This document shows, in pieces, positions 15,742 through 18,704 of a stretch of 64,000 nucleotides of DNA. Each line of letters opens with the position of its first letter. Within the stretch, counting starts at the first letter, position 1. Made by a program: the position numbers and the translations under genes. Below the pieces are notes generated by a model. It saw only the letters and a program-made list of their open reading frames with translations, had not been told where the DNA came from and did not search any database. Source of the stretch: Labedella endophytica (lineage in GTDB: Bacteria; Actinomycetota; Actinomycetes; Actinomycetales; Microbacteriaceae); NCBI RefSeq assembly GCF_003990045.1, contig NZ_RZGZ01000005.1, positions 62,001 to 126,000 of the forward strand, in the 5' to 3' direction.

Positions 15742-16695
15742 TCAGTAGAGCAGGCCGGCCAGCCGGGCACGCGCCGAGACGACGAGTGGGTCGGTGACAC
15801 CGACGATCTCGAAGTACTGGAGGATCCGCTCACGCACTCGGTCCCGATCGTCGGGGTCGAGCGTCGGGAAGAGGGCGAGCAGCCGGTCGAAGGCGTCCGT
15901 GACGTGACCGCCGGAGAGATCGAGGTCGGCGACGTCGAGGGCGGCGTCGACGGAGGTGGCGTCGGCGGCCGCGGCGGAGCGCATGGCGTCGACGGTCTTG
16001 CCGTCGAGGCGATCGAGCAGGCTCACCTGAGCGAGACCGGCCACGGCCTCCCTGTCGTTCGGCTGCTGCGCGATCTGCTTCGTGTACGCCGCGATGGCGG
16101 TCGCGTAGTCGCGTCGGGCGATCGCGTCGTATGCCTCCTGGTGGAGCGGCGGGAGCTCGGGCTCCGGAGCCGGCTGATCCGCGGCGCCGTCCACGACGAC
16201 CTGACCCGCGACGCCGCTCTGTGCGGCCGCCTCGATGACGCGACCGAGCACGTCCGCGAGCTGTGCTTCCGGGACGGCGCCCTGGAAGAGCGGCATCGGC
16301 TGCCCGCCGATGAGCACGACGACGGTCGGTGCCGTCGTGGCCTGCAGCCCCTGGACGAGCTGAGGGTTCGCGTCGATGTCGACGCGCACGATGACGAGGT
16401 GCCCATCGTGCTGGCCCACGAGGCGTTCGAGGACGGGGCTCAGGGCGACGCTCACGTCCGAGCGAACGGAGTAGAGGTCGACGACGACGGGCACCCGCGA
16501 GGACAACTCGATGAACTGGCCGAAGTTCTGGTCGTTCCCCTCGAGCACGAGCGACGGGACGCGGACGGTGTCGGGTGCGGCGCCCGACGGCGCCGGTCGG
16601 CTGCCGGCGGCCTGGGGGGCCGGCTGGCGGCTCGACAGACCGGAGAGGTCGACGGCACCGCGGAGGTTCGCTCCCGGGTTCATGGGGATGCTCAT
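15742..16695 (-). CDS. YbbN/CnoX-like thioredoxin-fold protein with TPR-like C terminus, no cysteines
   Basis: YbbN/CnoX proteins are holdase chaperones with a thioredoxin fold plus tetratricopeptide helices. The 317-aa product has a short N-terminal leader, a thioredoxin-like domain (about residues 60-165) with the cis-proline loop TAPTVVV, and a helical TPR-like half (EAYDAIARRDYATAIAAY). At the usual CxxC place it reads SVRSDVS, and the whole protein has no cysteine, so it cannot be a redox enzyme. The start is ATG at 16695, in an ATGA overlap with the upstream membrane-protein gene, so the two are coupled. Cytoplasmic, as no signal peptide is seen. Confidence 0.85.
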   Translation of the reverse strand: MSIPMNPGANLRGAVDLSGLSSRQPAPQAAGSRPAPSGAAPDTVRVPSLVLEGNDQNFGQFIELSSRVPVVVDLYSVRSDVSVALSPVLERLVGQHDGHLVIVRVDIDANPQLVQGLQATTAPTVVVLIGGQPMPLFQGAVPEAQLADVLGRVIEAAAQSGVAGQVVVDGAADQPAPEPELPPLHQEAYDAIARRDYATAIAAYTKQIAQQPNDREAVAGLAQVSLLDRLDGKTVDAMRSAAAADATSVDAALDVADLDLSGGHVTDAFDRLLALFPTLDPDDRDRVRERILQYFEIVGVTDPLVVSARARLAGLLY

Positions 16696-18617
16696 GGCAG
16701 TTCCTTCGCAGAGATGAGTGACTGGCTGAAACCGAGCAGGACGACCTGATCGGTCGAATCCGCTGGCGGGACGTAGAACAGGAGCTGATCCGCGTATTGG
16801 ACCTCGGCCCCCTTCGCCGTCTCCTCGAGCCCGACGATGGCGGCCACGGCTCCCTGGAGCTTCACGACGGCTCCCGTCTCGGTGGGCTTGACCGTCTCGC
16901 TCTCCATCATGCTCACGGCGACGATGGCGCCGGACGAGATCGTCGAGAGGCCGATCGGTTCGGTCTCCCCCGGGCCGACGGAGAAGTCGATGTTCGCCGT
17001 CGACGGGAGCTGCTCCTGCTTCGTCGCCCGGTCGGCGGCGATGAGCTCACGGAACGGATCCGATTCGGCGAACGACGCCGCGAACTGGCTCTCGGCTCCG
17101 TTGGCGATCAGGTCCGAGTACTGCGCGGCCAGATCGGCGGGAGGGACGAGCATGAGCGGCGAGTCGGGCGGGATGAACGCCGCTCCGATGGAGGCCGGTG
17201 CCGACTCGGGAATGGTCGCGTTCGGCTCCAGAGCGACGGCATAGGAGACCTTGTAGCTGGACCGCGGGGTCTCCTGCTGGAGCATCATGGCGATGAGCGG
17301 GGTCTCGGTGTCCTCCTGGTCGCCGACGACGGTGAAGACGGACCGCGGCCATACGTCCGTTGCCTGGGGAAGCGAGAGGAGCAGCGGCGAGGACGGGATC
17401 GTCCGCGGCACCGCGTAGTCGGAGACCTTCCCGCGCGTGGTGTAGTTCGACTGACGCTCGAGCAGAGCGGCACCGGTGAACCGGGTCGCCGCGAGTTCGC
17501 TGTTCCGATCGGCGTCGGCCTCGGTCGCAACCGCCGAGATCCGGGAGATGACGCGCTCGAGCTGGGCAACCGTGACGGCGGGAGCAGGCGCGTCCTCGGT
17601 CGCCTCGGGGACGATGGCGGCGCTGTCGGTGGGTTCCGGGGTCTGTCCGGCGGAGGACAGGTCCGGCCAGTAGTTGGCCGAACAGCCGCTCAGAAGAAGG
17701 CCGGAGATGAGGAGCACGGGCATCCCGACCCGCATGCTCGCGCGCACTCGGGCGCGGCGCTGCCGGCGGCGGCGGCGCGGCGGTTTCGCGGTCTGCTCGA
17801 GCCCAGGACCGGCGGTGATCCCCTTGCGGCGAGGGCCGCGGGACTTCCGGAGGTGGTTCAGTCCGAGGAGATAGAGGACGAGTCCGACCACGAGAAGCAG
17901 GATCCCCCCCGCGATGAGGGGGCCGGCCCAGGGAGTGGCGTTGCTCACGGGCCAGGACAGGCGCACGGTCGCCGGGGCGGCCTGCTCTCCGTCGGAGGCG
18001 ATGAGGACGCTCACGTCGTCCGGGACGCTGATCGGCGCGATGACGGCCTGATCCTCGACGTATTCGCTCAACCAGAGGTCGGAACCGCGGGGGTCGACCG
18101 TCTCGTCCGACGAATCGGCGTCGGACCCGGCTTCCGCTTCGGCCCCCTCGTCGGTCTCCGCCTCGGCGTCGCCCTCGTCCTCGGGTGCGGCGGTCTCGGG
18201 CGCGGCGGTCTCGGGCGCGGTGGCTCCCGGATCGGTGGTCTCGGGAGCGGCACCCTCGGACGGATCCGGGGTGGCGTCTGGTGTCTCCTCGGCTCCGCCC
18301 CGGATCGTCGTCTCGAGTTCCCCGGTCTCCTCGTCGACGGAGAGTTCGGCGTACTCGCTGTCGCCGAGCCAGGCCATGACGTCGCTCGTGCGGCCGTAGG
18401 CGACGAAGACCGTGTCCGACCCTGTGGCGGTGACCGTCTGAGATCCCTCGCGGGAGTTGAGGACGGCTCCGCTGACGAGCGTGTAGGGAAGGCCCCCGGA
18501 CACGACGCCTTCCGAGGCGACGGTCGACGGCGGCAGGAAGACCGTCCGCTGGGCGATGCCCAGGACGATCATCGCCGCGGCGACGACGAATGCGGCGATG
18601 GCGAGAACGAAACGCAC
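16692..18617 (-). CDS. Conserved multi-domain membrane protein with an internal lipobox-like motif
   Basis: Not recognised as a characterised family. The 641-aa protein has an N-terminal membrane segment (residues 1-25), a first extracytoplasmic domain, a long Glu/Thr/Ala/Pro-rich linker (ETAAPETAAPED and similar) and a second extracytoplasmic part. A second membrane segment (GPLIAGGILLLVVGLVLYLL) follows, then a very basic cytoplasmic loop (RRRRRQRRARVR) and a third hydrophobic stretch ending LLISGLLLSGCSAN, which looks like a lipoprotein signal. The last 310 residues would be extracytoplasmic. The GTG start at 18617 has an AAGGAG site. The open frame extends 20 codons upstream without support. 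It is coupled to the YbbN-like gene. Confidence 0.7.
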   Translation of the reverse strand: MRFVLAIAAFVVAAAMIVLGIAQRTVFLPPSTVASEGVVSGGLPYTLVSGAVLNSREGSQTVTATGSDTVFVAYGRTSDVMAWLGDSEYAELSVDEETGELETTIRGGAEETPDATPDPSEGAAPETTDPGATAPETAAPETAAPEDEGDAEAETDEGAEAEAGSDADSSDETVDPRGSDLWLSEYVEDQAVIAPISVPDDVSVLIASDGEQAAPATVRLSWPVSNATPWAGPLIAGGILLLVVGLVLYLLGLNHLRKSRGPRRKGITAGPGLEQTAKPPRRRRRQRRARVRASMRVGMPVLLISGLLLSGCSANYWPDLSSAGQTPEPTDSAAIVPEATEDAPAPAVTVAQLERVISRISAVATEADADRNSELAATRFTGAALLERQSNYTTRGKVSDYAVPRTIPSSPLLLSLPQATDVWPRSVFTVVGDQEDTETPLIAMMLQQETPRSSYKVSYAVALEPNATIPESAPASIGAAFIPPDSPLMLVPPADLAAQYSDLIANGAESQFAASFAESDPFRELIAADRATKQEQLPSTANIDFSVGPGETEPIGLSTISSGAIVAVSMMESETVKPTETGAVVKLQGAVAAIVGLEETAKGAEVQYADQLLFYVPPADSTDQVVLLGFSQSLISAKELP

Positions 18618-18704
18618 GAACACTCCTTCTACGTTGCCGATGGACGGCCGGAAAGGCACGTCGAGCGGTATGGACACGGCGCGGCAACGGACACGGGACG
18701 ATCC

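Follow-up and report, generated by a model that had tools for sequence, protein, structure and literature searches.

How can one uninterrupted open reading frame provide both a membrane protein and a lipoprotein, when the signal of the lipoprotein lies in the middle of the chain? This question is raised by a gene of Labedella endophytica located in the window analyzed here, i.e., the whole stretch of 64,000 nucleotides taken from contig NZ_RZGZ01000005.1 (positions 62,001 to 126,000). The original prediction had described a 641-aa protein in which a basic cytoplasmic loop is followed by a hydrophobic stretch ending in LLLSGC at about residue 310. We found this frame, with all of these elements, at 16692–18617 on the minus strand; the lipobox is present as described and its cysteine is residue 312. 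The frame starts with GTG and remains open over its entire length. An in-frame GTG located upstream, at 18677, would extend it by 20 aa; we prefer 18617 as the likely start because the homologues begin there with a conserved MRF. The homologues found in Labedella phragmitis and L. populi share 77–78% identity with it.

All parts of the protein are encoded on the minus strand. The chain begins with a first transmembrane segment (TM1), predicted to be an N-in signal anchor (residues 2–25; 18543–18614), which starts with the conserved MRF and is modelled by AlphaFold2 as a helix over the same residues. It is followed by a predicted extracytoplasmic beta domain (residues 26–230; 17928–18542), which contains a disordered acidic insert at about 110–175 and a conserved GSDLW motif with D180 and W182 invariant in the homologue alignment. 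A second transmembrane segment (TM2; residues 231–259; 17841–17927), also modelled as a helix over its full length, leads to a basic disordered loop of low pLDDT, predicted to be cytoplasmic (residues 260–294; 17736–17840; RRRRRQRRARVRA), which would act as the n-region of an internal signal. The predicted internal lipoprotein signal peptide itself covers residues 295–311 (17685–17735; MRVGMPVLLISGLLLSG), an in-frame ATG at residue 295 (codon 17735–17733) lying inside it. The hydrophobic stretch MRVGMPVLLISGLLLSGC ends with the lipobox LLLSGC, preceded by the basic loop as in a lipoprotein signal, and its Cys312 (17682–17684) is the predicted lipidation site and the +1 position of the putative LspA cleavage. 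The remainder of the mature lipoprotein (16695–17681) would consist of a linker (residues 313–340) and a C-terminal globular domain (about 341–641).

The two proteins that share this frame are separate genes in relatives. The original prediction proposed a fusion of two ancestral genes and a search for split homologues; in a scan of 59 relatives, the whole protein was fused in genomes of the same family, and most of the order's other families had its parts in separate frames. Among the loci first scanned, 160 were fused (N, middle, and C parts in one frame) and 17 were split. Where the genes are split, the start of the second one mostly shares 4 nt with the end of the first (ATGA); this second gene usually possesses a strong Shine-Dalgarno sequence (mostly −6 to −12 kcal/mol) and carries its own N-terminal lipobox. 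In a survey of the family, each of the 250 Microbacteriaceae genomes tested, representing 76 genera, gave a match, and the survey of the order, with the loci drawn from it, revealed fused frames in families f1, f6, and f7; one open frame is thus carried by the Microbacteriaceae and two related families. In a C-domain tree of 188 rows, every fused row belongs to the part delimited by a branch with a support of 98 and, since the fused rows are found together, one fusion event is enough within the order. The proposal is therefore well supported: the gene would derive from two ancestral genes, coupled in translation, that became fused in frame. A second fusion, made of 13 rows on a separate branch (support of 100), is found in family f35, which belongs to the same class and to another order; judging from the tree, it is independent of the first one. 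The fused loci of this family (L310 and L312–L323) have an internal lipobox and lack a Shine-Dalgarno sequence, and the lipobox is kept in the 12 fused f35 junctions that were read (12/12).

Is the internal signal a site of cleavage? We called lipobox and A-x-A sites by sequence pattern alone, the lipobox being [LVI][ASTVI][GAS]C after a basic n-region and a hydrophobic h-region, and the strict A-x-A site being one not followed by proline, in a window after the hydrophobic core; the same window after the TM2 of the same proteins served as a control. Cys312 is conserved in at least 90% of 97 fused homologues, and a cysteine occupies the lipobox in 244 of 261 fused loci, 17 being devoid of it (once duplicates are removed, it is found in 220 of the remaining 237). 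The original prediction regarded a non-conserved cysteine as an argument against cleavage; in fact, 16 of the 17 loci that lack it have, at the corresponding position, a strict A-x-A site for signal peptidase I (e.g., SQAYA|ET, GSAFA|TT, ATAMA|DS, GPAHA|EQ, or MTAHA|ST, the latter in L148). Such a site is found in 12 of the 237 TM2 control windows (Fisher's test, 5.6e-17) and is matched, loosely, in 43 of the 220 cysteine-containing loci (5.4e-10 against the cysteine-less ones), p-values that overstate the independence of related rows and for which the tree is a fairer measure. Parsimony on this tree gives seven changes between the lipobox and A-x-A types and, some forks being weak, about five to seven switches is a fair reading. 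Alanine richness by chance does not explain this excess of A-x-A sites well. The simplest reading of these patterns is that cutting of the chain at this place would be under selection, the peptidase being exchangeable. That a single chain is divided to give a membrane protein and a lipoprotein appears strongly supported by this evolutionary record, in which the cysteine is either retained or gives way to an A-x-A site.

The cysteine-less loci are L017, L019, L034, L036, L037, L086, L128, L140, L148, L157, L160, and L188–L193; within this set, L188 has no strict A-x-A site and the site of L190 is ambiguous. All the fused loci of family f6 that were read lack the cysteine and are of the signal peptidase I type. 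Locus L156, from a relative of a switched genus, has LAGC plus SAIA|D shortly downstream, and is a possible intermediate between the two types.

The predicted topology is compatible with such a cleavage. The full-length AlphaFold2 run, based on an alignment of 97 sequences, reached a pLDDT of 87 and a pTM of 0.79, with about 79% of the residues at a pLDDT of at least 70. It shows, in this order, TM1, the beta ectodomain, TM2, the disordered basic loop, a low-confidence short helix (residues 298–310), and the C domain, and this topology places Cys312, as predicted, at the outer face of the membrane. Lgt and LspA work at this face, and the genome encodes its own Lgt (PF01790, E 8.1e-65) and LspA (PF01252, E 1.1e-32). 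In the homologues, the loop has a median net charge of +15, TM2 has a median uncharged length of 28 aa, and about 17 aa separate the last charge from the cysteine; the best 19-mer of the signal reaches a hydropathy of 1.76 versus 2.5–2.7 for TM1 and TM2. The segment thus appears shorter and less hydrophobic than the two transmembrane segments, as for a signal peptide. Hence, the segment leading from the cytoplasm to the outside agrees with a cleavable signal by pattern, predicted topology, and conservation. In some fused relatives (L031, L165–L167, and L172), the loop between TM2 and the signal is very long, in some cases acidic, the longest loop of the set reaching 268 aa.

These properties bear directly on the possibility that the chain stays uncut and spans the membrane three times, Cys312 being at most lipidated without cleavage, or merely conserved. 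Such a chain would fit a model in which both domains are folded together, as in the AlphaFold2 run; however, it leaves unexplained why a signal peptidase I site arises at the same place in repeated lineages that lost the cysteine, and a transmembrane helix would be expected to be longer and more hydrophobic than this segment. We consider this reading very improbable.

Another way to obtain a lipoprotein from the same mRNA, also raised by the original prediction, would be a separate start at the internal ATG (MRVGMPVLLI), the fused frame then being incidental. Two in-frame ATGs do lie beside the signal in the gene of the window, and the separate lipoprotein genes of the split relatives begin at the equivalent place. 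However, no conserved start codon near the signal was found among 159 fused loci: in 48 of them, the 25 codons that precede the core contain none of ATG, GTG, and TTG, and ATG is missing from this stretch in 98. Moreover, no Shine-Dalgarno sequence above background was found at the candidate starts of the fused loci examined, where the energies of duplexes with the anti-Shine-Dalgarno sequence resemble those of ordinary internal codons (Mann–Whitney, p 0.20), unlike those of the split genes; the candidate starts of the fused f35 loci are equally weak. The open frame is also maintained in each well-assembled fused homologue. A separate start is thus disfavored and, overall, very improbable; for M295 itself, we rejected initiation in view of the Shine-Dalgarno and start-codon evidence.

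Finally, that the fused frame is an artefact of annotation or sequencing, as the broken frame of one relative (L027) might suggest, has almost no chance of being right, given open frames without stops in 76 genera of the family as well as in two further families, and given that the L027 break is accounted for by a piece of the C half copied into TM2. L027 (about 1290–1650) is the sole split locus of the Microbacteriaceae, and its break, which coincides with this copied segment, is probably a misassembly. A programmed frameshift was also considered for L027 and ruled out by the duplicated C-half segment within TM2, leaving misassembly or insertion. In G123, another genome of the same genus, a contig break falls in the same gene.

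We are thus led to a single chain that is cut at its internal lipobox to yield a membrane protein plus a lipoprotein, a reading which we regard as very probably correct. The comparison of homologues shows the fusion, the conservation of the site, the switches to signal peptidase I, the lack of internal initiation signals, a topology compatible with cleavage, and the presence of lgt and lspA; we infer cleavage, lipidation, and complex formation. The ancestral partners would be a membrane protein with two transmembrane segments and a beta ectodomain, and a lipoprotein, now translated as a single chain. TM1 would insert N-in, leaving the ectodomain outside, and TM2 would bring the chain back to the cytoplasm, where the basic loop and residues 295–311 would serve as an internal lipoprotein signal, re-translocating the C half. 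Cys312 would then be lipidated by Lgt and the chain cut by LspA just before it. The N half, which would end at Gly311 unless trimmed, would retain the used signal peptide as its third transmembrane tail, and the C half would become a lipoprotein of 330 residues on the outer leaflet (the original prediction of a lipoprotein product holds, its size having been given as 300 aa), both products being made 1:1. They would probably stay together as a complex; the model suggests that the two halves dock, because a pTM of 0.79, the one measure on which this is based, is hard to reach unless the relative placement of both ordered domains is confident. More broadly, the gene likely represents a polyprotein widespread among actinobacteria, which evolved on at least two occasions and was already fixed in the common ancestor of three or more families. 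It would be resolved at a lipobox inside the chain by signal peptidase II, which signal peptidase I and vice versa would have replaced repeatedly at this site during evolution, and its signal would remain as a third transmembrane tail of the upstream product.

The genomic context provides a hint on function. The fused gene is followed, in the same operon, by a gene for a YbbN/CnoX-like protein with thioredoxin and TPR_20 domains according to Pfam (15742–16695, minus strand), whose start codon and the stop codon of the fused frame overlap by 4 nt (ATGA). Such an overlap is found in 155 of 220 fused loci, and a thioredoxin/TPR homologue adjoins the pair in the 12 neighborhoods examined (12/12), split or fused. 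Our best guess, from this gene context, is a complex in the cell envelope that is linked to a thioredoxin/TPR partner in the cytoplasm.

The C half appears to be a distant homologue of known lipoproteins. Residues 341–638 match NCBIfam NF053531 (SCO2278 family lipoprotein) with an E-value of 1.4e-11, at a score of 43.9–46.6 bits that lies far below the curated cut-off of 210 and leaves the protein outside the family as defined; 35 of 37 C-halves match this profile. In the literature covered by our search, SCO2278 is named solely as a hypothetical protein (PMC5733086). Loci L300–L303, which exceed the cut-off, encode a stand-alone lipoprotein, and no N-half gene or thioredoxin/TPR neighbor was detectable in the stretch examined around them. 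Modelled alone, the C domain (pLDDT of 94.4) consists of two similar helix-sheet modules, which may be NTF2-like: Foldseek gave weak likenesses to the Tim44 C-terminal, ARC6/PARC6, and CagV/VirB8 folds (NTF2-like group), nothing falling under an E-value of 0.001 for either model. NF053531 apart, sequence searches in Pfam, NCBIfam, PHROGs, and PDB returned only sub-threshold or transmembrane-only matches.

To our knowledge, bacterial subunits are generally thought to be made from separate cistrons. Throughout the large clade examined here, two coupled cistrons seem to have become one, the separation of their products being left to the secretion machinery. A polyprotein cut by an internal lipoprotein or secretion signal is a rarely described route in bacteria, and lipobox annotation limited to N termini would overlook such lipoproteins. 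The clade offers a natural test of whether Lgt and LspA accept internal signals, of the fate of a signal peptide still joined to an upstream protein, and of the reason for exchanging a lipid anchor for plain secretion.

How does this gene compare with known systems? In the literature covered by our search, which left most subscription journals outside, we found no paper on internal lipoboxes or on bacterial polyproteins resolved by signal peptidases, LspA included. At the level of fold alone, the C domain resembles the Tim44 C-terminal domain and the ARC6 and VirB8-like NTF2 folds, and the YbbN/CnoX-like proteins share their architecture with the downstream operon partner, without being homologous to the fused protein. 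The SCO2278 family is homologous to the C half over almost the whole NF053531 profile; unlike the fused frame, however, its members above the cut-off are stand-alone proteins with no detectable adjoining N partner. A close parallel in design is the bacterial polyprotein FbcH of Bradyrhizobium japonicum (cytochrome b/cytochrome c1), cut by signal peptidase I. There, a membrane protein, an internal signal peptide, and an extracytoplasmic protein are encoded by one gene and separated by the signal peptidase; the genes are split in relatives and the products are respiratory subunits. The fused frame described here likewise joins a membrane protein, a predicted internal signal, and an extracytoplasmic protein, and is split in relatives, but its products are unrelated to those of FbcH and, whereas FbcH uses signal peptidase I, it mostly bears a lipobox (signal peptidase II), with several switches. 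The polyprotein principle being known from FbcH, we therefore call new the variant with an internal lipobox, which would be resolved by LspA.
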